A stretch of 64,000 nucleotides of DNA from an uncultured Chryseobacterium sp. (GTDB lineage Bacteria > Bacteroidota > Bacteroidia > Flavobacteriales > Weeksellaceae). Positions within the stretch are counted from its first letter, which is position 1, and each line of letters opens with the position of its first letter. Under the pieces are notes generated by a model. That model saw nothing but the letters and a program-made list of their open reading frames with translations. It had not been told where the DNA came from and did no database searches. The stretch is from the NCBI GenBank assembly GCA_913778275.1, contig CAJYWN010000009.1, positions 124,001-188,000 on the forward strand, in the 5' to 3' direction. The translations under genes were made by a program, and so were the position numbers. Positions 7,932 through 60,294 of this stretch are shown piece by piece.

Positions 7932-7939
7932 AATACTGA

Positions 7940-8785
7940 TTATTGAAATATATTTTTGTATTCAGTTGGTGTTTTGCCGATATATTTTTTAAACATCCTG
8001 CTAAAATAGGACAAACTATTGAATCCTGAATCGTAGCAGCTTTCGGATATGTTTTTTCCCTGTGCGATAATCTGACAGGCTTTATTAATTCTGAACCGGT
8101 TTACAAATTCCGTAAAAGTAATGTGGGTGGTTTTCCTGAAAAAATTACAGAATGCAGGCAAAGTGAGGTTGGCTTCGCGGGCAATATCCGTCATAGATAT
8201 TTCTTCCTGATAATGGCGCTCTACATAAGTAAATATTTTTTGCAGCCTTTCGCTGTTTTTTGATATCAGCGTGTAAGGCATCACCTCATCATTAAGAAGT
8301 GTATAGTGCTCTTCTTCGGAAAGAAGATAAAGGATATGAAGCAGTATAAGATAACGGTTATAGCCTTCACTGGTTAAAATTTCCTTCAGGTATGGCATAA
8401 TCATATATTTTGTATCCTCACTGAAGCAGATCCCGAATTTAGCTTTTTCGATAAGTTTGATGATTTTATTGGCTTCAGCCATTTTTTCAAGATGGCTTAT
8501 AATTCCTGCTTTGAACTGTATCACTATTTCTTCATGAGGATCAACAGAATTCAATCCGAATCCTGAATGTGGAATGTTTGATCCGATAAGCACCAGATCA
8601 CCGTCTGTAAAATTACTTTTATGGTAGCCTACGTGCCTTGTTCCTGAACCCGAAACCACACAAACCAGCTCTATTTCGGGATGATAATGATATTCCCATT
8701 TCAGCTCGGAAGTAGGCAGGGTATTGTGAAGTACGCGAAATGAAGAGTTTTTATCCGGAGTGATTTTTTCGAAACTTACTTTCAT
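7940..8785 (-). CDS. AraC-family regulator with cupin sensor domain
   Basis: The 281-residue protein has an N-terminal cupin-like sensor (HYHPEIELVCVVSGSGTRHVG near residue 35, then GDLVLIGSNIPH) and a C-terminal AraC double helix-turn-helix (about residues 180-281, ending FSRMFKKYIGKTPTEYKN). This is the arrangement of sugar-responsive AraC regulators. It is divergent from the MFS/trehalase genes and upstream of lacI in one operon, so it probably controls the importer-trehalase side, while LacI controls the outer-membrane side. That division of labour is inference. Confidence 0.93.
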   Translation of the reverse strand: MKVSFEKITPDKNSSFRVLHNTLPTSELKWEYHYHPEIELVCVVSGSGTRHVGYHKSNFTDGDLVLIGSNIPHSGFGLNSVDPHEEIVIQFKAGIISHLEKMAEANKIIKLIEKAKFGICFSEDTKYMIMPYLKEILTSEGYNRYLILLHILYLLSEEEHYTLLNDEVMPYTLISKNSERLQKIFTYVERHYQEEISMTDIAREANLTLPAFCNFFRKTTHITFTEFVNRFRINKACQIIAQGKNISESCYDSGFNSLSYFSRMFKKYIGKTPTEYKNIFQ

Positions 8786-8909
8786 TATTTTAATACTTTA
8801 AAATGCATATAAATATATAATTAATTAATGAAGTGCAAACATTGGTTTATGGAGTTAAAAAAACAAGCAGGGCTTCATGATAATTTTGATTCAATGTTAA
8901 ACACAATCC

Positions 8910-10124
8910 ATGAAATATCTCAATATAAAAATCTCCTTATTTATCAACTATTTTGTTTTTGCAGCTTTACTGAACAGCGTGGGACTGCTTATTCAGAAAT
9001 CTCAAAACAGCTATGGTGTATCCGGAGTAAAAGCAAGCTTTCTGGAACCGGCGAAAGATTTAACAATAGCAATGGTGGCTTTTTTAGTAGGCTCCTTTCT
9101 TCCGAAATTAGGATTTAAGACGGGGATGCTTCTTGCGTATGCTGTTGTTTTTATAGGATGCCTGCAGATGTATTTTGGGAATTCATTTTCGAATGTGATG
9201 ATATTATTTGCCTGTACGGGATTTTCATTCGCAATTATTAAAGTATCCGTATTAACAATGCTTGGAATCATTACTAATACGGAAAGCAGGCACAAGGCAT
9301 TCATGGGTTATATTGAAAGTGTTTTTATGCTCGGTATTGTATGTGCCTATATTATATTTCCCCTGTTTTACAGTGACTCCAATCCCAATGCTTGGCTTAG
9401 GGTATATCTAATTTTAGCAGGATTAATAGCCATTGTATTTACATTTTTATTCTTCTCGGATTTTAATTTTCCTCCTGTTGAAAATACTTCATTAAAAGAA
9501 GATCTTGTCAATATGCTGAGAATTTTAGTACAACCGATCATGATGCTCTTTGCTGTATTTGCATTTATGTATGTCATGACGGAACAGGGAATTATGTCAT
9601 GGCTGCCGACTTTTAATCAGAATGTGCTTCATCTTAACGAAAGACTTGCCGCACAGATGGCGGTTGTTCTGATGCTGAGTATTGCATTCGGAAGGTTTAT
9701 ATCTGGCTTTATTGTAAAGAGGATTCATTGGCATATCTATCTTACCGTTTGCCTGCTTCTGGCTGCAGCCATTATCTTGATAGTGCTTCCGAGGGCTGAA
9801 GGACTCAATATTGCGGAAGTAAATTCCGTTACCGGCATTCCCGTCATCGGATTTGTATTTCCGCTGATAGGACTGTTTTTAGCGCCTGTTTATCCCATCA
9901 TCAATTCCACCATTCTCAGCGCTACCAAAAAAGAAGAGCACAGTGCGGTTGCAGGGATTCTCACTTTCTTTTCAGCTCTTGGCGGTACCAGCGGTTCTCT
10001 TATTCTGGGGTATTTATTTCAGGAACTGCAGAGCGGAAAAGCCTTTTACTTCTCCCTCATTCCACTCACCATACTTATGGCGATCATTTACCTGATAAGA
10101 AAACAAACAGAGCGTAAAGGCTGA
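8910..10124 (+). CDS. MFS transporter, probable trehalose or sugar importer
   Basis: The 404-residue protein has about twelve hydrophobic helices and resembles the TsgA/FucP branch of MFS permeases. The start MKYLNIKISLFINYF puts the first helix directly at the N-terminus. It is followed 29 bp later by a cytoplasmic trehalase, so import of the intact disaccharide followed by intracellular hydrolysis is the simplest model. Substrate is inferred from context only. It is divergent from the AraC-type regulator, with a 124-bp gap that should contain both promoters. Confidence 0.87.
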   Translation: MKYLNIKISLFINYFVFAALLNSVGLLIQKSQNSYGVSGVKASFLEPAKDLTIAMVAFLVGSFLPKLGFKTGMLLAYAVVFIGCLQMYFGNSFSNVMILFACTGFSFAIIKVSVLTMLGIITNTESRHKAFMGYIESVFMLGIVCAYIIFPLFYSDSNPNAWLRVYLILAGLIAIVFTFLFFSDFNFPPVENTSLKEDLVNMLRILVQPIMMLFAVFAFMYVMTEQGIMSWLPTFNQNVLHLNERLAAQMAVVLMLSIAFGRFISGFIVKRIHWHIYLTVCLLLAAAIILIVLPRAEGLNIAEVNSVTGIPVIGFVFPLIGLFLAPVYPIINSTILSATKKEEHSAVAGILTFFSALGGTSGSLILGYLFQELQSGKAFYFSLIPLTILMAIIYLIRKQTERKG

Positions 10125-48680: not shown

Positions 48681-49396
48681 TAGAATTCTGGGCAGAAATT
48701 CCAAGAAGGGATGAAGAATATTTAGGCTCCATCCGCGATTGGAAAAATGTTCTGGTAGCATTGGAAGAAGATGTTATCTGGCTGAAAGGATTCACCGGAG
48801 AGCAGGCTGTTTCGGCAGAAATACAGCAGTTGCCGAATTTTGTGCTGTATGAATTGAGGGACGGACTTTTGTTCAGTAAAGATGCACTGGTTCCGAGTAA
48901 AAAAGTAAGAACAGCCCTGCTTTGGACACCTATTCATAAAGCATTACGATTAACATTTCCTCCTTCCAACAATAATTTCTTCGGAATCGATGAAAAAATT
49001 GATATTAAACTAAAAGCCTGTGAGCAAGAACATCATGTGATTGCTTTATTAGCTCCTATTGCGCAGATTAGTAAATCCATTATCGTCCAGCCGAAATTCA
49101 GGCTTGAAAAAATAAGCTGGACAGTTATTGATGATAAAGCATTATTCTTAGGAAATCCATTATTAAGCTTTCCCGGGAAAACGTTTTGGGAAAAAGACGG
49201 ACATCTGTTACCGGCCGGTTTTGATTTTGAATTTAAAAACATGAGCGTTTTATTGCAGAAAAAATACAATACAGAATTGGGTCAATGGCTTCTGTGGAAT
49301 GAAGATGGAAGCGTTTTACCAATTAATAAAAGTGATTTCCGGAAAATGTCCGTAAGCTCATTTCGTCTGACTGAAAAAGCAAAAGAATGGAACTGA
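48653..49396 (+). CDS. bpX-type component of the MoxR-vWA-propeller system
   Basis: The 247-residue soluble protein has no catalytic motif I recognise. Readable parts include IIEFWAEIPRRDEEYLGSI and ALLWTPIHKALRLTFPPSNNNFFGI. It starts inside the ATPase gene (28-bp overlap) and its stop overlaps the vWA gene by 10 bp, so the three are translated together. It is best placed as one of the bpX adaptor families. Confidence 0.72.
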   Translation: MAKDPSEYIIEFWAEIPRRDEEYLGSIRDWKNVLVALEEDVIWLKGFTGEQAVSAEIQQLPNFVLYELRDGLLFSKDALVPSKKVRTALLWTPIHKALRLTFPPSNNNFFGIDEKIDIKLKACEQEHHVIALLAPIAQISKSIIVQPKFRLEKISWTVIDDKALFLGNPLLSFPGKTFWEKDGHLLPAGFDFEFKNMSVLLQKKYNTELGQWLLWNEDGSVLPINKSDFRKMSVSSFRLTEKAKEWN

Positions 49397-51774
49397 ACGA
49401 ATACTTCCAGTCATACGAAAACTATTTCTGGGAATGGGCTACCGATGAAGACGTACCGGATCCGTCAGGCTATGATGAATATAACCTTATTTCCATCCCG
49501 AATGTAGGTGCAATCGCTTACAGACCTTACGTTATTGAAGTCCTGAAGGAACTGCAGCCGTACGGTTTTCCGCCTTTCGGATCACTGCTTCTGGTGCTGT
49601 ATGCTTCTCAGGACAGTTATCTGAATTTAAACGGTATTTCGTATTATTTAAAAAAGATAGAAAAAAATTCACTGCTCAGAAATACAGATCAGATTGTGGA
49701 GCTTTTAGAAAACATCAACAGGCTACCGCGAATTTACAAAACAGGCCAGAACAAAATCAATCTTCTTCAGACACTTTTTAAAAACTCCCATAACCGAACT
49801 TCTTCCGGAAGTGCAGAACTTATATTAAAAAGATTCGCCAAAAGACCCTATAAAATTGCGGAATGTGCCCAAAAAATATCTTTTCGCTCAATGCTTTTTG
49901 CAGCGGATGATATCGGCAACTTACTAAATGTGAAAGGAAAGTTTCCAACCACAGCGTCCATTATTCATGCAATGAAAGGTATAGCGGAAATTCCGGATCT
50001 GGAGGATGAAGTGGTAGAAGAAGAAACGACCGCAGAAAGCGGAAAAGATTTTATTCAGGAATTAATTGATGAGCCGAAGACCTTTCAGGTTGGAAGTTTA
50101 ATTAAAAGAATCTGGAGCGGACTGAAAATTCCGATGCGCCACCTTTCTCCCGGTGAACAGCCCATTGGAGGGATTTCGGATATGAGCAATAAAGGTGATT
50201 TTAACAGAATGCTTCTATCCGAATTTGCCAACGAAGATGAGGTGTTTATGAATCGTGTGGCTAATAATGAAGCTCTTTATATTCAGCGTGAAATTCCGCC
50301 TGAAGAAAATGTTTTTGAAAGAATCATTCTCATTGATACTTCCCTGAAAAATTGGGGAACTCCTAAAGTGCTGGCTTTTGCATCTGCCATTGCCATCATC
50401 AAACATCCTAAAGCACATTCGGAATGTAAGGTTTTGACATTGGGACATATCGGTCAGGAAATTTCCCTTAATAAAGCAGAACATGTTATCGAAAACCTCA
50501 ACCAGGTAAGTCCGGTGCTGGAGGTTTCCCAGGCATTGCAAAAATTTTTTGAAGAGGATCACAGGGAAAAAGATCTTGAAGTTTTTTTCATTACCCACCA
50601 GGAAAATGCGGCAGATCAGAAATTGCAGAAAGTCATTCATGAAAACAGGGATCGCCTGAAATTTCTCGTGACCACTTCAGCCGCCGGAGAACTGAACTTC
50701 TACAAGCATCATAAAGGAACAAGAAAGCATATACAGAAGATCATACTTCCGCTGCACGAATTGTGGGCAAATCCTCCGAAGGGAAAAAGAAACGGAGAAA
50801 ATAATTTCTCATCAAACGGAAAAAAGGCTGCTGTTCCGTTAAATTATCCGATTCTGTTTCCTACACCGGTCCATAAGATTGCAACCTTTCTGTATGAAGG
50901 AGAGTTCTATATATTAAGCAACAAAAAGCAGCTGTTAAGAACTTATCTGTCTGATAATTATTATAATAAAAGCCATTATGATTACTATAAAATCCAGCAC
51001 GGATCTGAAGTTCTGATTGAAGATATTTCCGTAAAACCGAAAGGCCAGTTTGCTTTAGCAAAAAATAAACAGCAGGAATTTATTTTATGCCAGTACCAGC
51101 CGGATAAAAGACTGATTTCTAAATTAAATTTAAATACAAAAGAGTATTCCGAGCTGAATATCACCGGAAAAATAGTTCCACCGGATTTTAATCTCATTTA
51201 TTTTAATAAAAACTTTTACCTGCATCATGAAAAGCCGGTATGGATCTATCAGATAAATCTTGAAGGAAATATCTCAATTGAACAGGTAAAGAACGATACG
51301 GAAATTGCTAAAAACTATGCAAAAGCGGAAGCTGAGGTATCTAAGCTTGCCAATAGGGGAATTAAGATCTTCAACAATTTCAGTAAAATAGGAATAAATA
51401 CAGATGAAGAATTGGTGATCTCAAAATATATAATGACAAGTCACGGCGACAGCCTTTATGCCTTTGCAAAAAACAGCACCGATATCAAAGTAATGGCCAC
51501 TCAGAATAAAAATGTATTCAGCTTTGAAGACGGAAGTGAAATTATTACAGATTCCCGCGGAATGCTCACTTTCAAAAGCAGCAATAAAAATATACCTGTT
51601 TTTTATATGCCTTCCGCCGAATATGGATATCTGGCATTAGGAACGGAAAATTATTTTGGCGGATCAGAATATTACCTTCCGAAAGAAAATAAATTGAAAA
51701 TAAAGGAAATGGACGAAATGTACGATCAATACATGGACGCTTTTATTAAACATGTTTTGAAATATGGAACTTAG
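49387..51774 (+). CDS. vWA-like protein with C-terminal beta-propeller
   Basis: The 795-residue protein has an N-terminal helical region (1-240), a vWA-like domain at about 300-470 and a C-terminal part (about 485-795) of repeated beta blades such as HKIATFLYEGEFYILSNKK and NFNLIYFNKNFYLHHEKP, fitting a beta-propeller. The metal-binding DxSxS of vWA is altered to Asp-Thr-Ser-Leu-Lys near residue 316, and the later Asp strand reads VFFITHQEN, so metal binding may be lost. It is the expected client of the MoxR ATPase; the propeller probably recognises a target. It overlaps the next gene by 11 bp. Confidence 0.85.
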   Translation: MELNEYFQSYENYFWEWATDEDVPDPSGYDEYNLISIPNVGAIAYRPYVIEVLKELQPYGFPPFGSLLLVLYASQDSYLNLNGISYYLKKIEKNSLLRNTDQIVELLENINRLPRIYKTGQNKINLLQTLFKNSHNRTSSGSAELILKRFAKRPYKIAECAQKISFRSMLFAADDIGNLLNVKGKFPTTASIIHAMKGIAEIPDLEDEVVEEETTAESGKDFIQELIDEPKTFQVGSLIKRIWSGLKIPMRHLSPGEQPIGGISDMSNKGDFNRMLLSEFANEDEVFMNRVANNEALYIQREIPPEENVFERIILIDTSLKNWGTPKVLAFASAIAIIKHPKAHSECKVLTLGHIGQEISLNKAEHVIENLNQVSPVLEVSQALQKFFEEDHREKDLEVFFITHQENAADQKLQKVIHENRDRLKFLVTTSAAGELNFYKHHKGTRKHIQKIILPLHELWANPPKGKRNGENNFSSNGKKAAVPLNYPILFPTPVHKIATFLYEGEFYILSNKKQLLRTYLSDNYYNKSHYDYYKIQHGSEVLIEDISVKPKGQFALAKNKQQEFILCQYQPDKRLISKLNLNTKEYSELNITGKIVPPDFNLIYFNKNFYLHHEKPVWIYQINLEGNISIEQVKNDTEIAKNYAKAEAEVSKLANRGIKIFNNFSKIGINTDEELVISKYIMTSHGDSLYAFAKNSTDIKVMATQNKNVFSFEDGSEIITDSRGMLTFKSSNKNIPVFYMPSAEYGYLALGTENYFGGSEYYLPKENKLKIKEMDEMYDQYMDAFIKHVLKYGT

Positions 51775-53464
51775 AATAAAACCTTTTCCGAAAAATAATC
51801 ATCCTAAAAAAGGGCTTCTCATTAAAGGTTCTTCACCAAGGACATGGCTGTATGAAATGGAGATGTTAGGGATTGACTTAAATGAGGTCCGGTCTTTTCC
51901 CATTCCTGCCGATGAACCGAATGTACTGTACGGATGTTTTTTGATTTTTCAGCATACTGCTCCGGTTGAAATTGGCAGAAATTCCTATTTCCAATGTGTT
52001 GATCGTAAACTTTTCATTCCTGAAAATACAGACTTTTATCCCAAAATAATTTCCGAAGACTTGCAGAATACCGATGCGGAATTTCTGATCATGCATCCCG
52101 AATTCGGTCTGGTAAAACTGAATGAAGAAATCGACTGGATCTCGATCATCAAAACTCCAAAACCATCCTCCTACAAAATACGTAAGCCATCGAGTGGGGT
52201 GAAAATCCCGCAGAAGATTGAGAGTTATACCGTGGAAATGGATGATGAACAAATTCTCAAATCCCTTCAGAAGCCGCAAACCGAAGAAGCATGGATGAAA
52301 GAGCTGCCTTTCGATCTTCAGAAGGTAATGAAAGGGAATAAAAAAGAAGTTGAAAAATATTTAAAATATATTGAAAAATATCCTGACAGAGCAGTAGATC
52401 TCGGTGTTCCGCTGGATGTTATGGGAACTTCCAGAGGTGATGGTTTTGCAAAATTTAAATTTGGAAATTCCTGGCTTGGAAAGTTGTTTGGCGGTGGAAA
52501 TTCTGCATATTCTCAAAATTACCGCTGGGTATTTTGGGTTGTCCTTATTATAATGGGTCTGGTAAGGCTTTTTGTGCATCTTAATAAGAAAGAATCTGCA
52601 GAAAACCATTCTACGATATCCTCAGGAAAAATTTCTGAGGTGAATAAAGATTTAATGAAGCCTATGGTAGCCTATCAGTCCGGTGTAACGGATATTGATA
52701 TGAAAATTGATTCCATGTATGGTAAAGAAAGGCGTAAACTGATGGATGAGCATATGAAGGCGATGCTTAGTTATAATGATCCAAAAAACAAAAACAGCTA
52801 CAAAGAATATCTGAAAAATGGCGGAAAACCGATTAATGAAATTTATAAGGAGATTACAGATCATCAAAACAAGGTTAAAACTTCGGAAGATTCCCTGAAA
52901 AAGGTGTACAGCAAAAAAATTGTAAAATATTTAGCCCAAAACGAAGAAAAATATAAAAATAAAATTAGGGACTCGTTGAAAAAAATCACTTCAGGAAAGC
53001 CCGCAGAACAGGGAATTATAAAAAAAATCTGGAAAAAGAAACAGATACTGATTGAAGATTCACTGGGCAGATTGTACGGAACAAAAGACTATCCTGAACC
53101 GCCTGCAATTCAGGATGCAGGTCAAAAAGCTACAGCTTATGAAAAGGAAGAACCTTACGTGAAAAATGACACCTCTTTTTCAGAAATTATCTGGCTGATC
53201 ATCTTTATGACCGGTGTTGTAGGACTGTATAATTTTATAGTTAAAAAAAGATCCTTAAATGCAGGAGGGCAAAATGTTCCCGGTAGTATTAAAATTTTTC
53301 TCATCATTGTGCTGGTCGGTATGTTGGCCTATATTTTCTACCCGTTAATTGAAATGTTCGGCTACAACTGGTTTGTGTGGATTCTCATTGTAGGTGTCGT
53401 ATTATTGCTTTACAGGCTGTTCAGTGAAGATAAAACCATTTTAAAATCAGACAAAGATGAATAG
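51764..53464 (+). CDS. Membrane component of the MoxR-vWA-propeller system
   Basis: The 566-residue protein has a cytoplasmic N-terminal domain (1-245), one helix near 253-275, a charged coiled-coil-rich loop (280-470), and three helices near 475-493, 510-530 and 536-553. It is not an enzyme by motif. It probably anchors the complex at the inner membrane. It overlaps both neighbours (11 and 8 bp). Confidence 0.72.
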   Translation: MELRIKPFPKNNHPKKGLLIKGSSPRTWLYEMEMLGIDLNEVRSFPIPADEPNVLYGCFLIFQHTAPVEIGRNSYFQCVDRKLFIPENTDFYPKIISEDLQNTDAEFLIMHPEFGLVKLNEEIDWISIIKTPKPSSYKIRKPSSGVKIPQKIESYTVEMDDEQILKSLQKPQTEEAWMKELPFDLQKVMKGNKKEVEKYLKYIEKYPDRAVDLGVPLDVMGTSRGDGFAKFKFGNSWLGKLFGGGNSAYSQNYRWVFWVVLIIMGLVRLFVHLNKKESAENHSTISSGKISEVNKDLMKPMVAYQSGVTDIDMKIDSMYGKERRKLMDEHMKAMLSYNDPKNKNSYKEYLKNGGKPINEIYKEITDHQNKVKTSEDSLKKVYSKKIVKYLAQNEEKYKNKIRDSLKKITSGKPAEQGIIKKIWKKKQILIEDSLGRLYGTKDYPEPPAIQDAGQKATAYEKEEPYVKNDTSFSEIIWLIIFMTGVVGLYNFIVKKRSLNAGGQNVPGSIKIFLIIVLVGMLAYIFYPLIEMFGYNWFVWILIVGVVLLLYRLFSEDKTILKSDKDE

Positions 53465-54473
53465 GCAGAAGTTTATAGACAAATTCAGCGCAGCCTTTTT
53501 TATTTTGGTGATCATTAAGGTCATCGCTCTGTTAGCACAGTTGTTTCATCAGAGTTTTTGGAGCGTTGTAGGAACCCTTGTGATTTTTATTATTGTTGCT
53601 TTTATTATTTTTATTGTCATTACCCGTCTGGAAGACAAGGAAAAAGACATACAGGGAAGAAGAGGTGCTGCTTCCGGTGGAAATTTTTATGTGGAAAGTT
53701 CTCTTTTTGATAAAATCAGGAATAAATACGAGGAACTTGCTAAAAGTTATATCCGTGAAAAGGATTATAAAAAAGCAGCCAAAGTGTATATCAATCTTCT
53801 TCAGGATCATTACCGCGGAGCCAAAACACTGGAGGAAGGAGGGTTTTACAATGAGGCAGCAGTGATTTACCTGAAAAAACTGAAAAATAAATCTGAAGCT
53901 GCGAATTGTTATGAAAAAGCAAAGCAATACCGGAAAGCAATAGAACTGTATAAAGATCTTGAACAGAAAGAAAAGGTGGGTGATTTGTATAAAGAAATCA
54001 ATGATTATAAAAATGCCAATATCTATTATCAAATGGTGGTTGACGATTACGTAAATTATAATCAGATGGTAAAAGGTTCATTGGTTTATCGTAAAAAAAT
54101 GGAGATGCCTGAAGAGGCCCAGAAAATTTTGCTGATAGGATGGGAAGAAGATAAAGATGCCTTCAACTGCCTGAATAATTATTTTGTCAATATCTTTGAT
54201 GCTAAAAACCTCGAACACGAAATCGGGGAACTATATCAAAAAACACCTTCTGAAAAAAAGATCATCTTTCTCGAAGCAATGAAACATGAATTTAAAAGAG
54301 ATCTTTCACTTCATACCATAATCAGGAATATCGCCTATGAAATTATCGCAGAAAAAGTGATTACTCATTCGGAAATTGTTAATGAATTAAAATATTTCAA
54401 TCCGGATGATGAGGTTATTTTAAAAGATATTTCGAGATATAAAACGGGCCGGAATAAAATGTTCAGGAGCTAA
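53457..54473 (+). CDS. TPR-repeat membrane protein of the MoxR-vWA-propeller system
   Basis: The 338-residue protein has two N-terminal helices (about 12-58), then TPR-like repeats between 85 and 215: KSYIREKDYKKAAKVYINLLQ, NEAAVIYLKKLKNKSEAANCY, KAIELYKDLEQKEKVGDLYKE. The family is a predicted scaffold. It is the last gene of the cluster, ending 18 bp before a new promoter. Confidence 0.75.
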   Translation: MNRQKFIDKFSAAFFILVIIKVIALLAQLFHQSFWSVVGTLVIFIIVAFIIFIVITRLEDKEKDIQGRRGAASGGNFYVESSLFDKIRNKYEELAKSYIREKDYKKAAKVYINLLQDHYRGAKTLEEGGFYNEAAVIYLKKLKNKSEAANCYEKAKQYRKAIELYKDLEQKEKVGDLYKEINDYKNANIYYQMVVDDYVNYNQMVKGSLVYRKKMEMPEEAQKILLIGWEEDKDAFNCLNNYFVNIFDAKNLEHEIGELYQKTPSEKKIIFLEAMKHEFKRDLSLHTIIRNIAYEIIAEKVITHSEIVNELKYFNPDDEVILKDISRYKTGRNKMFRS

Positions 54474-54490: not shown

Positions 54491-54498
54491 TATCTTTG
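54491..54498 (+). promoter_or_regulatory. Promoter box TATCTTTG for small ORF 1
   Basis: This perfect TAnnTTTG match lies 14 bp before the ATG at 54512. Confidence 0.7.
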
Positions 54499-54511
54499 CA
54501 CCAATAAAATT

Positions 54512-54640
54512 ATGACAATACAAAGAGCACATATCAGTTTAAATCTATGCGATCGCCCTATGCTAAAGGGATCGTTTGGATATGAATGGATGATATTGAA
54601 TGAGGCAGAATGTGCTTGCTTTGAAAATAATTTACTGTAA
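54512..54640 (+). CDS. 42-codon small ORF 1
   Basis: The peptide has three Cys and an acidic C-terminus (NEAECACFENNLL). It is framed by the promoter box at 54491 and a perfect terminator at 54672, so it looks like a single-gene transcript. I do not recognise it. Inside it, GATC-G-CCCT and AGGGATC (54550-54575) can form a hairpin, so the transcript may instead be a structured RNA. Confidence 0.4.
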   Translation: MTIQRAHISLNLCDRPMLKGSFGYEWMILNEAECACFENNLL

Positions 54641-54671
54641 ACCCGTAAAAATTTTATCAAAATAGTGCAGA

Positions 54672-54698
54672 AACGCCTCGATTTTCGAGGCGTTTTTT
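54672..54698 (+). terminator. Terminator after small ORF 1
   Basis: AACGCCTCG and CGAGGCGTT form a perfect 9-bp stem with loop ATTTT, followed by TTTT. Confidence 0.9.
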
Positions 54699-55016
54699 GT
54701 GTTTTTAAGAGAGAAATTATTTAGAATGAAAAAAAATAACTATAAAAGTGAAAATTTTTTAATCAGCAATGAACAATTAATAAGAAAATAAAGCGTGATC
54801 AATAACCCGATGAGAGACAGTCATTTAGGTAAGGATAAATCTGCAATCCGTTGCGGACAGGAATTTCTTATCTTAAAATTAAAGATTAAATATCTGATAA
54901 TCAGTTTTTTATAGTAAAAATAAATTTGCAGGTTAAAAAAAATCATATTTACTTTGCAACCGAAAATTGAAAGCAACAGGTTTTCAGCTTTTCAAAATGT
55001 TAAACAAAAATAAAAA
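54699..55016. other. Gap between the two small ORFs
   Basis: There is no gene here. TTTACTTTG near 54948-54955, with an upstream TTTG near 54923, is a possible promoter for the second ORF. Confidence 0.4.
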
Positions 55017-55154
55017 ATGAAACAATTACATAACATATCAGATTTACATTCAGGACAACGCGGTGCAGAACCGATGGGGCAGCAATATGCTTGTATAAAT
55101 CTGCTTGATAGTGAATTTGTGGGAAAATGGTGCTTATATATATGGGTCAGCTAA
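55017..55154 (+). CDS. 45-codon small ORF 2
   Basis: MKQLHNISDLHSGQ... to ...KWCLYIWVS, with two Cys and an aromatic C-terminus. A possible promoter lies 60 bp upstream, and a perfect terminator follows 22 bp after the stop. The arrangement repeats that of small ORF 1, though the peptides are not clearly related. Not recognised. Confidence 0.4.
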   Translation: MKQLHNISDLHSGQRGAEPMGQQYACINLLDSEFVGKWCLYIWVS

Positions 55155-55176
55155 TGAACTGACACGTCCAAAATAT

Positions 55177-55206
55177 AAAGCGCCTCCCGAAAAGAGGCGC
55201 TTTTTT
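55177..55206 (+). terminator. Terminator after small ORF 2
   Basis: AAAGCGCCTC and GAGGCGCTTT pair around the loop CCGAAA, followed by T6. Confidence 0.9.
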
Positions 55207-55215
55207 ATGATGTAT

Positions 55216-55290
55216 GGTTTCTCTAGCTTATTTGGTAAAGCACCGGTTTGTGGCACCGGAGAATAGGGTTCGATCCCCGGAGATACCCCA
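55216..55290 (+). tRNA. tRNA-like His (GTG)
   Basis: The acceptor GGTTTCT pairs with AGATACC except for one T-T. The D arm is GCTT/AAGC, and the anticodon stem is CCGGT/ACCGG with loop TTGTGGC (anticodon GTG at 55250-55252). The T arm TAGGG/CCCGG has an A-G mismatch. The usual G-1 of tRNA-His is absent and the D arm is shifted by one base. The gene ends in C-C-A only because the discriminator is C. It is degenerate and probably not a normal decoding tRNA. Confidence 0.6.
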
Positions 55291-55379
55291 AAATGTGAAT
55301 GGTCAATAGTGAATTTACTTCATAATTGAATTAAAATTGATAGCAGAGCGAATTTGCAATTCACAATTCACCCGAAAAA

Positions 55380-55452
55380 GGTCTATTGAGGTAATGGTAA
55401 CCTTCCCGACTGTCTCTCGGGTACTGCGAGTTCGATTCTCGCATAGACCGCA
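55380..55452 (+). tRNA. tRNA-like Asp (GTC)
   Basis: All stems pair: acceptor GGTCTAT/ATAGACC, D arm AGGT/ACCT, anticodon arm CCCGA/TCGGG with loop CTGTCTC (anticodon at 55412-55414), and T arm GCGAG/CTCGC. The variable region has four nt. The 3' end reads G-C-A, so one C of CCA is absent. It is 71 nt to the discriminator, shorter than a usual tRNA because of small D and variable loops. Confidence 0.7.
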
Positions 55453-55668
55453 AAATGAGAAAGGAAAAGTTTGTCGAGCGCAGACGATCTTTAAGCCAAA
55501 AGCACATAACCTATAGACATGCTTTTTCTTAACTCAACTAAAACTAGTGAAATAAAGTCTGTCAAAGCGCAGAAGTTCTTACATCAAACTAAAAATTAAG
55601 ACAGGTTTTATTTTCTTCAAATAATAAGCTGCTGGTGAATTACTCATTACCGGTTGCTTATAAAAGCC

Positions 55669-55744
55669 GCGGGAGTGGTGGAAATGGCAGACACACTTGA
55701 TTTAGGCTCAGGATTTTGGGGGTTCGAATCCCTCTTCCCGTACA
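55669..55744 (+). tRNA. tRNA-like Leu (TAG) lacking the long variable arm
   Basis: The acceptor GCGGGAG/TTCCCGT pairs with G-T at both ends. The anticodon arm is CTTGA/TCAGG with loop TTTAGGC (TAG at 55703-55705), and the T arm is GGGGG/CCCTC. Only five nt (ATTTT) separate the anticodon and T arms, whereas bacterial tRNA-Leu has a long variable arm. The 3' end is A-C-A. Confidence 0.65.
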
Positions 55745-55852
55745 AAATATGAGTGATGAAATATGAATGATAATTGATAAATCATCAATAATAAATGAAT
55801 AATCCGGAAATAGAATCAATTATCAATCATCACTTATCAATACTAATTAAAC
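55745..55852. repeat. Inverted repeat between tRNA-like genes
   Basis: TGATAATTGAT (55768-55778) and ATCAATTATCA (55815-55825) are perfect partners inside a longer imperfect palindrome. The spacer at 55291-55379 has a related GTGAATT/AATTCAC arrangement. The 55453-55668 spacer has two similar direct pieces, GTTTGTCGAGCGCAGACGATC and GTCTGTCAAAGCGCAGAAG. Confidence 0.6.
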
Positions 55853-55926
55853 TGATTCATGGTGTAATTGGCAGCACACAAGACTTTGACTCTTGTTGTT
55901 CAGGTTCAAACCCTGATGAATCAACA
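55853..55926 (+). tRNA. tRNA-like Gln (TTG)
   Basis: The acceptor TGATTCA/TGAATCA is perfect. The D arm is GTGT/GCAC, the anticodon arm CAAGA/TCTTG with loop CTTTGAC (TTG at 55886-55888), and the T arm TCAGG/CCTGA. The 3' end is A-C-A. Confidence 0.7.
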
Positions 55927-55932
55927 AAAACT

Positions 55933-56005
55933 ACTCCGATGATGTAATGGCAGCATCTCAGTCTCCAAAACTGACGGTACTGGTTCGAATCCGGTTCGGA
56001 GTGCA
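55933..56005 (+). tRNA. tRNA-like Trp (CCA)
   Basis: The acceptor ACTCCGA/TCGGAGT is perfect. The D arm is ATGT/GCAT, the anticodon arm TCAGT/ACTGA with loop CTCCAAA (CCA at 55965-55967), and the T arm ACTGG/CCGGT. The variable region has four nt. The 3' end is G-C-A. It starts six bases after the Gln-like gene. Confidence 0.7.
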
Positions 56006-56132
56006 AGAATGTTAATGATCAATGCTGAATTTGCTTCGCAAGTGAATTTGAAATTGACAATACAATGGATTAACGATTTACAATTGATGACATAATTATT
56101 AAAATTTAAACAAAAAAAAATATGTAGAAAAA

Positions 56133-56618
56133 ATGGAAACGCAACAACAAACATGGCAAAACATGACCGGAAAAATCTTTCGGAACTCTATCACAGAGCT
56201 GGTAGAAGAAGCCGTCATCCGCGAACAGGCTAATGGACACCGACTGAAAGTATGTGTGGGATCAGATTCCCATGTGTATGGGGATGCCATTAATTATGCT
56301 ACGGCAGTAGTCTTTATTCGGGAGGGAAAAGGAGCGTTTACCTTTATCAGAAAAGAAAGGGAAATACAGACAATCAGTATCAAAGAGCGAATGCTGAATG
56401 AGGTAAACAAATCCGTAGAAATCGCCTATGCCATCTGTGCTGTTCTGGATGCTTACGGAGTAGAAATGGAAGTACACGCAGACATTAATACCGACCCGGA
56501 TTTCAAATCCAACGCAGCATTAAAAGATGCAATGGGATACATTCTCGGAATGGGCTATGTATTTAAAGCAAAGCCTTATGCGTTCGCAAGCTCCAATTGT
56601 GCGGATATGATGGTATAA
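56133..56618 (+). CDS. RNase-H-fold DUF458/YkuK-like protein
   Basis: The 161-residue protein has the DUF458 (YkuK) pattern: GKIFRNSITELVEEAV, the first acidic strand VCVGSDSHVYG, YATAVVFIREGKGAF, and a second acidic strand EVHADINTDPDFKSN. The fold belongs to the RNase H superfamily. It has no signal peptide. Lying directly after the tRNA-like array, it is a plausible nuclease or RNA-binding partner of these RNAs. The activity of the family has not been established to my knowledge. Confidence 0.88.
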   Translation: METQQQTWQNMTGKIFRNSITELVEEAVIREQANGHRLKVCVGSDSHVYGDAINYATAVVFIREGKGAFTFIRKEREIQTISIKERMLNEVNKSVEIAYAICAVLDAYGVEMEVHADINTDPDFKSNAALKDAMGYILGMGYVFKAKPYAFASSNCADMMV

Positions 56619-56674
56619 TAAACTAAAAGCAGCGCAAATACTATTATAAATTTAAACTTCCGTTTTAGAACGAA

Positions 56675-56707
56675 AACCTCACAGGTTTTTAAAAACTGTG
56701 AGGTTTA
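56675..56707. repeat. Palindrome AAACCTCACAGG type, copy 1
   Basis: AAACCTCACAGGTTTT pairs with AAAACTGTGAGGTTT. The same palindrome occurs at 57681-57711; both follow a stop codon and may stop transcription. Confidence 0.75.
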
Positions 56708-56731
56708 AATAAAAGAATAAAATTTAAAAAA

Positions 56732-57103
56732 ATGGAATTGACAAAAAGATTATTGTTTCTGGACGATATACGATATCCTATTGAAGTTTATCATTATGCA
56801 AAACAGGATATTTTCCTGAGAAGCGATTGGTTTATCGTTCGGAATTACAAGCAGTTTATCGATAGAATTTTGGAAAACGGCTTACCGGAAATGATTTCTT
56901 TTGACCACGATCTTGCAGACGAACATTATTTAAAAGCAGATTCTCAGCAATTTGTCGAAAGAACAGGGTATGACTGCGCGAAGTGGCTTGTAGAATACTG
57001 CATGGATAATGGTGCCGATTTACCGGAATTTTACTGTCATTCCATGAATCCTGTAGGAAAGGAAAATATTGAAAGCCTTTTAAAAAACTTTAAAAAATTA
57101 TAA
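56732..57103 (+). CDS. Cyclic-phosphate-processing receiver-domain (cREC) protein
   Basis: The 123-residue protein shows the cREC pattern: LLFLDDIRYP at the N-terminus, ISFDHDLADEHY in the centre, TGYDCAKWLVEYC, and FYCHSMNPVGKENIESLL at the end. The family is a receiver-like fold with conserved Asp and His residues, predicted from gene neighbourhoods to process 2',3'-cyclic phosphate RNA ends in RNA-repair systems. Its stop codon overlaps the next start by one base. Confidence 0.85.
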   Translation: MELTKRLLFLDDIRYPIEVYHYAKQDIFLRSDWFIVRNYKQFIDRILENGLPEMISFDHDLADEHYLKADSQQFVERTGYDCAKWLVEYCMDNGADLPEFYCHSMNPVGKENIESLLKNFKKL

Positions 57104-57660
57104 TGGACATATTTAGATGTATACAATTTATACAAACGCATTTGAAACTCACTTTTGATCAGGTTGACCGATGGTTTGGAAAAGATAATAAAACGTTGAA
57201 TTATCAGCCTGCGAACGGTGGCTGGACAGTTCAGCAGATTTTAGAACATATTTATCTCACGAACTTTTATCTGTTGATACTTATTGAAAAAGGATCAAAA
57301 AAAGCAATGCGGAATTATCTGAATCTTGATTTGAATCTGGAGATAAAAAATTACAGTTTCAATCAGGAAAAGTTCGAAAAAGTAGGAGAATATGGCGCTT
57401 TTGAGTGGATAAGACCGGAACACATGGATCCGAAAGAAAACTTAAATTCAGATGAAATCAGACGATTAATTGCTCAGCAATATCAGCAATGTTTACATTA
57501 TTTGGATTTAATGGAAAATGGTGAAGGTCTTCTCTGCAAAACAACAATGACAGTGAATGAATTGGGAAAGATTAATGTGTACGAATATATTTACTTCCTT
57601 TCACTTCATGCTCAGAGACATCTTACTCAGATGAAAAATAATGAATTACAAATAATTTAA
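57103..57660 (+). CDS. DinB-like four-helix protein
   Basis: The 185-residue protein matches the DinB/YfiT superfamily: NGGWTVQQILEHIYLTNFYLL near residue 38 with the first metal His, and a late LHAQRHLTQMK with the HxxxH pair. Members bind a divalent metal and include thiol transferases; many have no known role. It is coupled to the cREC gene by a one-base overlap, so it probably works in the same process. Confidence 0.85.
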   Translation: MDIFRCIQFIQTHLKLTFDQVDRWFGKDNKTLNYQPANGGWTVQQILEHIYLTNFYLLILIEKGSKKAMRNYLNLDLNLEIKNYSFNQEKFEKVGEYGAFEWIRPEHMDPKENLNSDEIRRLIAQQYQQCLHYLDLMENGEGLLCKTTMTVNELGKINVYEYIYFLSLHAQRHLTQMKNNELQII

Positions 57661-57680
57661 TCCCTTCATGTAGGTAAGGA

Positions 57681-57711
57681 AACCTCACAGGTTTTCAAAA
57701 CCTGTGAGGTT
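57681..57711. repeat. Palindrome AACCTCACAGG type, copy 2
   Basis: AACCTCACAGGTTTT and AAAACCTGTGAGGTT form a perfect stem around one C. Confidence 0.75.
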
Positions 57712-57739
57712 AAATAAAAACAATTAAAAATTTAAAACA

Positions 57740-58303
57740 ATGAAACAAAATATATTTTTTACGGCAGACCATCATTTCGGTCATGCCAATATTATAAAAT
57801 TCTCCGAAAGGCCTTTCGAGTCGTTGGAGCATATGAATGAAGAACTTATTAAACGGTGGAACGAGAAAATAGGTAAAGAGGATACTGTTTACCATTTAGG
57901 AGACTTAAGTTTAGGCAAACCGGATTTTACGAAAGAAACTCTGGACCGATTAAACGGAACCATCCATCTGATAAAAGGAAATCACGAGGGTGCGGCGTTA
58001 ACGTATCCCAAACGATTTGCATCCATCAGGGATTACCATGAGTTAAGAATTGATGAGGCCGAAAACAGTAACGGCAAACAAAAAATCATTCTTTTTCATT
58101 ACTCCCTTCGAACATGGAACGGCTCCCATCGCGGAACCTGGCAGTTATACGGCCATTCGCACGGAACATTGCCGGATGATGAAATGGCATTAAGTTTCGA
58201 TGTAGGGGTGGACTGTCATGATTTCTATCCTGTTTCCTACGAAGAAGTAAAGGAACTTATGAAGAAGAAAAAATGGACACCGCCTTTTGCGCCAAGGAAT
58301 TAA
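57740..58303 (+). CDS. Calcineurin-like metallophosphoesterase
   Basis: The 187-residue protein has all five metal motifs: FTADHHFGH, HLGDLSLG, LIKGNHEGA, LFHYSLRTW and LYGHSHGTLP. It is a small cytoplasmic member. In RNA-repair loci such enzymes are candidates for opening 2',3'-cyclic phosphates or removing terminal phosphates. The substrate here is inferred from neighbours only. Confidence 0.9.
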   Translation: MKQNIFFTADHHFGHANIIKFSERPFESLEHMNEELIKRWNEKIGKEDTVYHLGDLSLGKPDFTKETLDRLNGTIHLIKGNHEGAALTYPKRFASIRDYHELRIDEAENSNGKQKIILFHYSLRTWNGSHRGTWQLYGHSHGTLPDDEMALSFDVGVDCHDFYPVSYEEVKELMKKKKWTPPFAPRN

Positions 58304-58609
58304 AGGGATGGAAAAGGATGGTGAAAACGTGAAGTAAGACCTGTCTTAAAGCTTTTCTTCCTTAAGTTTTAAAAATAATTTTTTTCTGCGCAAAAACACT
58401 GCGCAATCAGTATTTTATTTTGCTTCATCAAAATGGCAACAACTAAATTGTGAAAAACAGATTTTAGTCAAAATATCAGGCGGGTCTAGTTGGGTGTTTC
58501 GGTATATCACCATTGCAGAATGATTTGTTGAGAAACATGATTTTGTTCTGTTCAGCTTGACCTGAAGGTTTCAGGAGTTTCCAAAAACTTCCGGACATTT
58601 TCTATGTAT
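58304..58609. other. Leader of the permuted tRNA-like RNA
   Basis: No gene. Hairpins are possible at 58387-58405 (TGCGCA/TGCGCA), a D-arm-like GGTG/CACC with an internal GG at 58493-58511, and CCTGAA/TTCAGG at 58561-58575. Part of this stretch may belong to the RNA that follows. Confidence 0.45.
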
Positions 58610-58785
58610 GGAGGTTCGAGTCCTCCCTGTGATCGACACAGTAGCTAAATGGTATAGCAATGGAATCTTAGGATCGCGTGGGTTCGAATCCCACTCTCGT
58701 TTTCACGGGATAGCTCAGTCTGGTCAGAGCACTACATTACGGTTGTAGGTTAATATCAAAAATAGACTCAAAATCTATTTTTTTT
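58610..58785 (+). ncRNA. Structured RNA of tRNA arms in permuted order
   Basis: Unit 1 runs T arm GGAGG-TTCGAGT-CCTCC (58610-58626), closed acceptor-like hairpin CTGTG-ATCGA-CACAG (58627-58641), TA, D arm GCTA/TAGC with GG in the loop (58644-58658), then a degenerate anticodon region. Unit 2 runs T arm GTGGG-TTCGAAT-CCCAC (58678-58694), hairpin TCTCGT-TTTC-ACGGGA (58695-58710), TA, D arm GCTC/GAGC (58713-58730), and anticodon arm CTACA/TGTAG with loop TTACGGT, anticodon ACG (Arg). A terminator, AAAATAGA/TCTATTTT plus T run, closes it at 58759-58785. Read as ordinary tandem tRNAs, the acceptor strands do not pair. Confidence 0.65.
58759..58785 (+). terminator. Terminator of the permuted tRNA-like RNA
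   Basis: AAAATAGA and TCTATTTT pair over 8 bp around CTCAAAA, followed by a T run. Confidence 0.8.
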
Positions 58786-58896
58786 CGCGAGTTTCCGGGT
58801 ATTCTCAACAAAAATATCCGCACTGGAAAATCCGGGATGTTTTCGGTTGTTGAATCAACACTCTGAAAAAGCCTGCAAGAAAAGAGGTTTTCTAAA

Positions 58897-59064
58897 ATGA
58901 AACGGTATGGAAGAGCTTATTATCTTCAGACAAATGCTGAAAAGACGGTTTTCCGCGTGAGCGATGGAAACGGATATCCTTTTTTGCTTGCAAAAAAGAT
59001 AGAAGTGAACGTAGCGACCCGGGCTGCAGGCAATGCGGCAGCGAGGGACACGCCCAAGATCTGA
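58897..59064 (+). CDS. 55-codon ORF of doubtful status
   Basis: MKRYGRAYYLQTNAEK through SDGNGYPFLLAKKI reads like protein. The last 20 codons, however, come from GC-rich sequence (GTAGCGACCCGGGCTGCAGG) that looks like an intergenic repeat. It may be a remnant. Confidence 0.25.
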   Translation: MKRYGRAYYLQTNAEKTVFRVSDGNGYPFLLAKKIEVNVATRAAGNAAARDTPKI

Positions 59065-59196
59065 AATTCAGGATAAATCTGAAAACTGAGTGTAAACATC
59101 AGTGAATTTTTTGTAAAACACTTTACTTCCGCATTTTTCGGAAGAAGAGATCACGGATTTCCTTTTATAAATAATAACGGTTAAAAAATAAAAATC

Positions 59197-60294
59197 ATGA
59201 TAAAAAATGTACATATTAAAGCATATGAGAGAGGTCTTGTTTTCAAAAATGGAAACCTGGTCGATATCCTGAAAGAAGGAAGCTTCTGGGTTTTTGGGAA
59301 TAAATCTGTAGAGATCTACGATATGAAATATTCTTTTAAAAGCAATACTGAACTTACTCTTTTGCTGAAGAATGAGAGGCTGAAAACCATGCTGGATGTG
59401 GTTGAAGTGAAAGACGGTGAAATCGTTCTTGTTTACGAAAACGGGATTTTCAAAGAAGTATTGAATGTAGGGCAGTACGCTTTCTGGAAAGGTGTTTTTA
59501 ACAGAGAATTTCAAAAAATCGATGTCACAAAAGTAGAGATTACCGAAAATATTTCCAGGAATATTATGGAAAATGCAAAGCTTAAAAGTTTTGTAAGAAA
59601 ATTTACCATCACCAACCAGTATAAAGGTCTTTTGCTGGTTGACGGAAAGCTGGACCGCGTTTTAGATGCCGGAACATACTATTTCTGGAACAATGAAACT
59701 TCTATAGAGGTGAAAGCCATTGATACCAGAATGCAGCAAATGGAAATTGCAGGGCAGGAATTGCTTACAAAGGATAAAGCAATGCTCAGAATTAATTTTT
59801 ATGTCCGTTTCCAGGTGGAAAATATCGTGAAAGCGCTTATGGAGAATAAAGAATATGACAAGCAATTGTACATTCTGATGCATCTGGCGTTGAGAGAATT
59901 CGTAGGCGCTTTAACCCTTGATGAACTGCTGGTGAAAAAAGATTCCGTAGGAAAAGAAATCCTGGAGAATCTGGGAAATAAGGCTGAAGATTTAGGTCTG
60001 AAAGCTGCTGATGCAGGAATTCGGGATGTCATTTTAACAGGCGAAATGAAAGAAATCATGAACCAGGTTCTCATTGCCGAAAAGAAAGCCCAGGCCAACA
60101 CCATCATGAGACGTGAAGAAACGGCTTCCACAAGAAGTTTGTTGAACACTGCGAAACTCATGGAAGAAAACGAAGTGCTCTGGAAGCTGAAAGAAATGGA
60201 ATACATGGAGAAAATTGCCGATAAGATCGGAGATATTACCGTGTCCGGGAACCATAATATTGTTGCTCAGCTGAAAGAGATCTTTACCAAATAA
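59197..60294 (+). CDS. Slipin-like SPFH/Band-7 protein with triple N-terminal repeat
   Basis: The 365-residue protein has three copies of a short unit ending in an aromatic pair: GLVFKNGNLVDILKEGSFWVF (near 14), GEIVLVYENGIFKEVLNVGQYAFW (near 75) and YKGLLLVDGKLDRVLDAGTYYFW (near 142). The SPFH core follows, with AIDTRMQQMEIAGQELLTKDKAMLRINFYVRFQV and the slipin end RDVILTGEMKEIMNQVLIAEKKAQA. The membrane hairpin of ordinary slipins is missing, so it is probably soluble. SPFH proteins of this kind have been proposed as scaffolds in RNA-repair systems together with a tRNA-like RNA, which fits the RNAs found here. Confidence 0.9.
   Translation: MIKNVHIKAYERGLVFKNGNLVDILKEGSFWVFGNKSVEIYDMKYSFKSNTELTLLLKNERLKTMLDVVEVKDGEIVLVYENGIFKEVLNVGQYAFWKGVFNREFQKIDVTKVEITENISRNIMENAKLKSFVRKFTITNQYKGLLLVDGKLDRVLDAGTYYFWNNETSIEVKAIDTRMQQMEIAGQELLTKDKAMLRINFYVRFQVENIVKALMENKEYDKQLYILMHLALREFVGALTLDELLVKKDSVGKEILENLGNKAEDLGLKAADAGIRDVILTGEMKEIMNQVLIAEKKAQANTIMRREETASTRSLLNTAKLMEENEVLWKLKEMEYMEKIADKIGDITVSGNHNIVAQLKEIFTK

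Follow-up and report, generated by a model that had tools for sequence, protein, structure and literature searches.

A stretch of 64,000 nt from an uncultured Chryseobacterium sp. (contig CAJYWN010000009.1, positions 124,001 to 188,000; hereafter the window) carries on its plus strand a locus in which five tRNA genes are followed, in order, by genes for a DUF458 protein, a cREC protein, a DinB_2 protein, a calcineurin-like phosphoesterase, a structured RNA and a slipin. The tRNA genes are preceded by two leader ORFs, each with its own terminator, that very probably form transcription attenuators with near-complete sampling of the amino acids. We consider it probable that the locus as a whole is an RNA-damage response module, in which a spare set of tRNAs under attenuation control is combined with repair genes. 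The two leader-terminator units, at 54512-54698 and 55017-55206, fall within the span of an original prediction for this DNA, which missed them. That prediction had listed the one-strand set of tRNAs, DUF458, cREC, DinB, phosphoesterase, second RNA and slipin, which ARAGORN, Rfam and Pfam confirmed, and had proposed that the tRNAs act as decoys, guides or sensors.

The window derives from a Chryseobacterium-type bacterium, its slipin being 90% identical to that of C. taichungense. With this slipin as query, a comparison set of 81 slipin loci was assembled, comprising the window and the best 80 of 121 candidates. Neighbouring protein families were clustered over the 81 loci, and Pfam was run on one member per family. 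Array tRNAs from 26 Chryseobacterium-type loci were set against the housekeeping tRNAs of a single species, C. formosense (relative L020). The features ahead of the window's tRNA genes are the following.

54491-54500, plus strand: TATCTTTGCA, a promoter-like -7 box before leader 1, read from the sequence
54512-54640, plus strand: leader ORF 1, 42 codons, all kinds of amino acid but valine (19)
54674-54698, plus strand: terminator 1, 8-bp stem and T run
55017-55154, plus strand: leader ORF 2, 45 codons, all kinds of amino acid but threonine (19)
55129-55139, plus strand: 5' arm of the putative antiterminator, GGTGCTTATAT, in the last codons of leader 2, able to pair with 55173-55184
55180-55206, plus strand: terminator 2, 7-bp stem and T run, 9 nt before tRNA-His

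A scan recovered leader 2 and its terminator ahead of the first array tRNA at 39 loci (L078 was added later, and an overlapping second ORF in L020 was left out of the count). The gap between the T run of terminator 2 and tRNA-His is 0-9 nt in Chryseobacterium-type loci. The leader 1 unit lies about 440-570 nt farther upstream at 33 of 38 loci with enough sequence; the scan of these 38 found none in L036, L040, L042 and L080, and a 34th candidate, in L079, was dropped as, by eye, the end of an exonuclease gene. Sequence at L039 was too short. Leaders are 34-50 codons long and use 17-20 kinds of amino acid, and the attenuators usually come two in tandem. At six marine array loci, the leader precedes a TPR gene that itself comes before the array. 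At L005 (two leader units, 7728-8366) and L007 (leader 2, 7964-8089), no array tRNA was found, though the leader units persist, with the phosphoesterase gene next. A weak Rfam Phe_leader match covers 54599-54700 of the window (31.8 bits, gathering score 55, E 0.006). The possibility that rtcB stands behind a leader of the same kind was rejected, none being found at five rtcB genes (L132, L135, L137, L142 and L143, of 16 loci). The space between the two leaders, 54700-54930, contains a conserved ORF of 20-21 codons (MKKNNYKSENFLISNEQLIRK in the window) and an element, GAGAGACAGTCATTTAGGTA, followed by a hairpin; by eye, both are seen again in relatives, and the element has a similar form in Kordia (L078).

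What sets these leaders apart is the breadth of their amino-acid composition. At least 18 kinds of amino acid were used by 66 of 72 leaders versus 21 of 103 other ORF-plus-terminator instances at the same loci. Eleven of these 21 proved to be leaders too: L005 and L078 account for two each, L007 for one and the six marine loci for one apiece. Their removal, a reclassification made after they had been seen, lowers the background to 10/92. When kinds were compared with those in random protein windows of equal length, Fisher's method gave P 1e-9 over the medians of 13 leader families and 8e-8 with the worst member of each family; leaders of L019, L022 and L076 were trimmed to a later ATG for this test. 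Relative to proteins, leaders are poorest in valine, alanine and glycine, and the 26 Chryseobacterium-type arrays yielded no tRNA for any of these three. Over the 20 amino acids, leader composition correlated with the content of Chryseobacterium-type arrays (Spearman 0.60, P 0.005, for leader 2; 0.53, P 0.016, for both leaders). The run of codons for one amino acid that would be expected of a trp-type leader was not seen by eye.

Across 26 loci, all 182 cells of terminator 2 are paired (182 of 182), and 7 of the 26 sequences show a G-C/A-U swap; the antiterminator is paired in 95% of cells, and its 5' arm, GGTGCTTATAT, is almost invariant. In truncated folds, with only the 5' half of the terminator made, the ORF end held that half in 37/39 leaders 2 (shuffles, 0.36). 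For leader 1, the corresponding figure was 24/34, L079 included (shuffles, 0.22). Masking the ORF, to imitate a ribosome that has reached the stop codon, allowed the terminator to form in 38/39 leaders 2.

The association was recovered in additional genomes. A slipin search of 149 genomes from one family matched 15; one of these was known before, and the 14 new loci were fetched. Nine carry a cluster of at least two tRNAs, and in eight of these nine a leader with 19-20 kinds of amino acid lies within 2.5 kb upstream. The chance of this result, from 1.6e-7 (background 10/92) to 4e-4 (background 0.3), is a rough figure, because the scan (28-60 codons) was wider than that behind the 10/92 background, the leader of L221 is as long as 58 codons and kinship with earlier leaders is evident in several. 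L214, where two tRNAs lie 7 kb apart and which is outside the nine, gave no leader candidate.

The array itself comprises five genes within 55216-56004, each recognized by both ARAGORN and Rfam.

55216-55289, plus strand: tRNA-His (GTG)
55380-55451, plus strand: tRNA-Asp (GTC)
55669-55743, plus strand: tRNA-Leu (TAG), 75 nt versus 83 nt for the housekeeping Leu TAG of L020
55853-55925, plus strand: tRNA-Gln (TTG)
55933-56004, plus strand: tRNA-Trp (CCA)

All five exceed the Rfam gathering score (45.9-63.1 bits). The genes termed tRNA-like in the original prediction are real, and are by both programs full canonical tRNAs rather than merely tRNA-like. At least three ARAGORN tRNAs on one strand lie within 10 kb upstream of the slipin at 58 of the 81 loci, the window included. 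Fewer than three were detected at 15 loci with at least 9 kb of upstream sequence, in several of which an array may exceed the fetched flank; upstream sequence at the remaining eight is short. The largest array, in relative L042, has up to 17 tRNAs. Supernumerary tRNA arrays that are normally silent and are induced by translational stress are known as L-arrays. Besides a housekeeping set that covers all 20 amino acids, the L020 genome encodes 16 array tRNAs, which differ from that set in sequence. In this relative the array genes are therefore not the ordinary housekeeping tRNAs that would have refuted the original prediction; it is also the one relative in which tRNA genes beyond a housekeeping set, as expected of an L-array, were established.

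Such an array might serve general translation stress, as caused by antibiotics or starvation, in the manner of the Anabaena trn operon, with the attenuator merely reporting slow ribosomes. In the accessible part of the Anabaena report, 26 tRNA genes are silent in standard culture and switched on by translation-targeting antibiotics, and rtcB and a slipin gene are among those raised in a repressor mutant (PMC10272220). An attenuator would, moreover, respond to any stall. Against this account stand the repair genes of the neighbourhood and a promoter pattern that ties the slipin-linked RNA to rtcB and TROVE (both described below), and a general booster need not omit the Ala, Gly and Val tRNAs missing from Chryseobacterium-type arrays. 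We regard the general-stress account as unlikely and favour a tRNA set kept for RNA damage.

The sequences of the array tRNAs bear on what such a set could do. Of 265 array tRNAs read in the 26 Chryseobacterium-type loci, two that could not be assigned to a normal amino acid were set aside. Among the other 263, 247 have the same discriminator base as the cognate housekeeping tRNA of L020, as do 92 of the 94 for which that housekeeping base is not A; at the isoacceptor level the match is 20/21, equalled by none of 20,000 permutations. This agreement persists despite considerable divergence. Mean identity to the best cognate housekeeping tRNA is 0.55-0.74, and of 135 array tRNAs sampled (at most eight per isoacceptor), only 59 have their cognate as the closest housekeeping tRNA when whole sequences are compared. 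The commonest forms keep GG in the D-loop and TTCRA in the T-loop, except for Cys (TTTGA in 13/20). The 7-base anticodon loop differs from that of L020 housekeeping tRNAs in every array Asp, Glu, Gln, Pro, Phe, Arg, Ile, Ser, Leu, His and Thr tRNA, in 18/20 Cys and in 14/15 Tyr; it is identical in Lys, Asn, Trp and 5/6 Met. The anticodon itself is never changed. Variable arms are long in array Cys and short in array Leu tRNAs, the reverse of housekeeping.

These features also speak to the proposal that array tRNAs are decoys or sponges for anticodon nucleases, not required to function in translation. The odd bodies of long-arm Cys and short-arm Leu tRNAs and the retained anticodons would suit decoys, as would the near-identity by eye of the Ile, Arg (ACG) and Lys acceptor stems in L020. 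Cognate discriminator bases, kept although the nearest housekeeping tRNA is so often non-cognate, point the other way, and with most isoacceptors differing from L020 at loop positions flanking the anticodon, array tRNAs would be poor mimics. Chargeable, diverged tRNAs fit cognate discriminators in diverged sequences better than simple decoys do, and we judge a decoy function to be quite improbable. Because the discriminators are kept and attenuators precede the tRNAs, decoys, guides or sensors as main role, which the original prediction had favoured, were not upheld: the leader ORFs rather than the tRNAs look like the sensor. We view the array tRNAs as a diverged set, probably chargeable, for which replacement of housekeeping tRNAs is the role we think rather likely.

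Leader sequences evolve in a manner suggesting that composition is kept more than peptide sequence. Variability along codon positions is flat, other reading frames are open in 0/33 leaders 1 and 1/39 leaders 2, and upstream of the antiterminator arm, gaps in leader 2 come in multiples of three, with a single +1 exception (L025); between arm and terminator, gaps of 1-2 occur. An arrest peptide or conserved microprotein was rejected on the grounds of this flat variability and of leader 2 peptides that look unrelated between genera. The broader suggestion that the leader ORFs encode small functional proteins with ordinary terminators and no tie to the array could draw on leader 1 starts that by eye are similar between genera (MT..R.HI) and on single-change codons of leader 1 that are mildly richer in synonymous changes (690, to 1459 nonsynonymous) than the expected ratio of about 1:3. 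It is highly improbable given the same flat variability and unrelated leader 2 peptides (by eye), the closeness of terminator 2 to tRNA-His and the pairing of ORF end with terminator arm above shuffles.

Downstream of the array lie four protein genes, identified by Pfam.

56133-56618, plus strand: RNaseH_like (DUF458) protein, family in 41/81 loci
56732-57103, plus strand: cREC_REC protein, 35/81 loci
57103-57660, plus strand: DinB_2-like protein, 22/81 loci
57740-58303, plus strand: calcineurin-like phosphoesterase (Metallophos_2), 35/81 loci

Burroughs and Aravind reportedly described, in 2016, SPFH/Band-7 RNA-repair systems with cREC, phosphoesterase, ligases and a tRNA-like RNA. The 81 loci agree with such a setting. 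RNA ligases are of T4 Rnl2 type at 30, RtcB at 12 and RLIG1-like at 8; an RNase_T 3'-5' exonuclease occurs at 38 and TROVE/Ro60 at 21. By median position, Rnl2 and the exonuclease usually lie upstream of the slipin, and TROVE and RtcB downstream. Further families are a metallo-beta-lactamase fold (20 loci), R2K ATP-grasp (13) and RimK-like ATP-grasp (10). With repair families so common around the slipin, the RNA-repair label given earlier to the locus is well supported, and the window reads as a trimmed copy. As had been noted, no ligase is present: neighbour-family clustering found none in the window interval. The ligase search called for was made on relatives' genomes and found RtcB in 7 of 8. 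Since ligases occur in relatives' loci and RtcB in most relatives' genomes, the missing ligase reads as a local loss, accompanied, probably, by RtcB acting in trans. That array aminoacyl-tRNAs supply a non-ribosomal reaction, for instance with the R2K-type and RimK-like ATP-grasp enzymes encoded upstream of the slipin in relatives, is very hard to credit, neither family having been found in the window interval and the attenuator logic suiting decoding failure better.

Several neighbours of the repair genes are recorded here as observations in their own right. Directly upstream of the window's leaders, at 49387-54473, Pfam recognizes bpX0, bpX1 and bpX3 of the MoxR-vWA-beta-propeller ternary system and a TPR gene; the same neighbours stand upstream of the leaders in several Chryseobacterium loci. 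In the accessible text of an eLife 2020 paper on these ternary systems, the word tRNA occurs once, in the reference list (PMC7159879). PADLOC, run on ten proteins, reported no defence system, giving two weak DndC/DndD matches and one weak PDC match, and classed the exonuclease as DEDDh. WYL and WCX domains were seen in an L050 protein (7116-9050, minus strand, upstream of the slipin) whose family is present at 10/81 loci, none of them Chryseobacterium; it is a candidate regulator.

The remainder of the locus contains the second RNA and the slipin.

58387-58426, plus strand: inverted repeat resembling an operator, with a promoter-like box; corresponds to the rtcB/TROVE pattern in relatives
58470-58786 (ends approximate, the RNA lying at about 58430-58790), plus strand: tandem YrlA-like (permuted-tRNA) noncoding RNA
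59197-60294, plus strand: slipin-like SPFH/Band_7 protein (Pfam)

The predicted RNA has a conserved 5' part, two modules, each of T-arm, acceptor-like hairpin and D-arm, and a 3' part with an anticodon-like arm and a terminator-like last stem. A search of the stretch matched YrlA (RF02553) at 58609-58658 with 33 bits (E 3.7e-5), below the gathering score of 69, and L020 gave matches of 36.7 and 32 bits, also below it; the second tRNA-arm RNA of the original prediction is on this evidence real. The 43 pairs of the RNA are conserved in 97.8% of cells across 31 loci. Two-sided changes occur in 24 of the 43, against 14.1 in shuffles (0/500 reach 24) and at most 9 in slid structures, the structure having been predicted from the same alignment used for the test. 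At 75 of 77 loci with enough sequence, the 900 nt ahead of the slipin hold at least two T-arm hairpins, and in our own reading twin T-arms lie within about 1.1 kb of the slipin at all 14 new loci. TROVE was found in 4 of 10 genomes, and the six without it have twin T-arms as well. Of the refuting conditions set with the original prediction, slipins lacking a nearby array do occur, at the 15 loci where none was detected, although in several of these it may lie past the fetched flank; the twin T-arms hold nearly throughout. On this conservation the tandem YrlA-like RNA is the slipin's constant partner; with twin T-arms so nearly universal and the array sometimes undetected, slipin and RNA appear to be the constant core and the array a frequent partner. 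A match to Flavo-1 RNA lies between the tandem RNA and the slipin, at 58947-59023 (Rfam; 34.7 bits, gathering score 42, E 1.8e-5).

The slipin-linked RNA and one rtcB paralogue are preceded by a common operator-promoter pattern. A scan of eight genomes for this pattern returned 12 sites, of which five precede rtcB, two TROVE and five the slipin-linked RNA; read backwards, the pattern gave zero sites in the same genomes. Because the pattern was drawn from promoters of the slipin-linked RNA and two rtcB promoters already seen, the independent part of this result is the two TROVE sites and three of the rtcB sites (G005, G011 and G013). The pattern is strict and misses some sites, among them the RNA's own promoter in G001, G004 and G005. 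The window, which lay outside the scan, has a site that differs from the pattern at two letters.

From the parts, their conservation, the possible alternative pairings, leader composition, discriminator bases and the shared promoter pattern, all read from sequence, we infer a scheme of expression, ribosome stalling, tRNA charging and co-transcription with repair genes, with tRNA cleavage as the natural trigger. Two tandem transcription attenuators would keep the array silent. During normal translation, a ribosome at the leader stop codon would cover the antiterminator arm and the terminator would form. If any of many tRNAs were cut or exhausted, the ribosome would stall earlier in the leader, the arm would pair with the 5' half of the terminator, and RNA polymerase would enter the array. 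Spare tRNAs would then restore decoding, with repair enzymes made alongside. In parallel, an operator-controlled regulon of tandem YrlA-like RNA, one RtcB paralogue and, where present, Ro60 would handle broken RNA. We give about an even chance to the strongest form of this scheme, a universal codon-sampling sensor by which loss of almost any tRNA releases dormant, nuclease-divergent replacement tRNAs and repair enzymes, promoting recovery from tRNA-cleaving toxins and phage-defence nucleases.

Several observations weigh against this scheme. The antiterminator lacks two-sided changes, its ORF-end/arm duplex beats shuffles at P<0.05 in only 17/39 leaders, and there are one-base indels near the leader end, an insertion in L025 and a deletion in the last codons of L046. 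Full-length equilibrium folds mostly contain the terminator, the ORF end holding the terminator's 5' arm in only 6/39; the switch, if working, would consequently have to be kinetic, of the trp type. Any single leader is weak evidence, family medians ranging from P 0.0016 to 0.31 and the worst leader reaching 0.45, and the 13 leader families are not fully independent. Over all groups, the correlation of composition with array content falls to 0.43 (P 0.06) for leader 2 and 0.39 (P 0.09) for both leaders, and array content against mere presence in the leader gives 0.28 (P 0.23). Candidate leaders have only 16 kinds of amino acid in L052, the seventh marine array locus, and in L217, the ninth new array locus. 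Of arrays on the opposite strand, L050 gave no candidate leader and L053 one of 16 kinds, and neither has one of at least 17 kinds within 2.6 kb. Finally, odd loops in Thr-type array genes and odd bodies in those for Cys and Leu could hinder charging.

Were the scheme correct, a leader reading nearly all amino acids would constitute a general detector of decoding failure in about 45 codons. Its tie to spare tRNAs and repair genes would explain the purpose of extra tRNA arrays in bacteria and provide a testable account of survival after tRNA cleavage. The slipin-linked tandem Y-like RNA, with its rtcB/Ro60 promoter pattern, offers slipins a concrete partner. Leader-peptide attenuators read, to our knowledge, one or a few amino acids. 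In the open-licence literature, no leader sampling all amino acids and no tRNA arrays at slipin or Rnl2 loci were recognized among the matches listed; an earlier mention may exist in Burroughs and Aravind 2016 or in the original L-array paper.

Attenuators of the trp, phe and his type comprise a leader ORF in which one or a few codons are repeated, an antiterminator arm at the ORF end, a terminator and the regulated genes. The layout here is the same, whereas the leaders use 17-20 kinds of amino acid, often stand in tandem and are followed by tRNAs. Phage tRNAs resistant to anticodon nucleases are, in the accessible text, likewise extra tRNAs with changed anticodon loops (PMC10264068); the set described here differs in being cellular and placed behind putative attenuators. 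Closest in print, among the open-licence matches listed and as far as their accessible portions extend, are the Salmonella rsr-yrlBA-rtcBA operon (PMC7790460) and the Anabaena trn operon (PMC10272220). The former similarly unites a Ro60-type protein, a Y RNA with a tRNA-like domain and RtcB, and is induced by damaged tRNA. There, RtcR senses tRNA halves, whereas here the tandem YrlA-like RNA stands beside a slipin and RtcB is usually encoded elsewhere in the genome. In Anabaena PCC 7120, as here, there is a long array of extra tRNAs (an L-array), silent in normal growth there, and in a trcR mutant the loss of repression extends from the array to rtcB and a slipin gene. The Anabaena array is plasmid-borne and controlled by a repressor protein, TrcR, whereas the arrays described here lie near RNA-repair genes behind putative leader-peptide attenuators.

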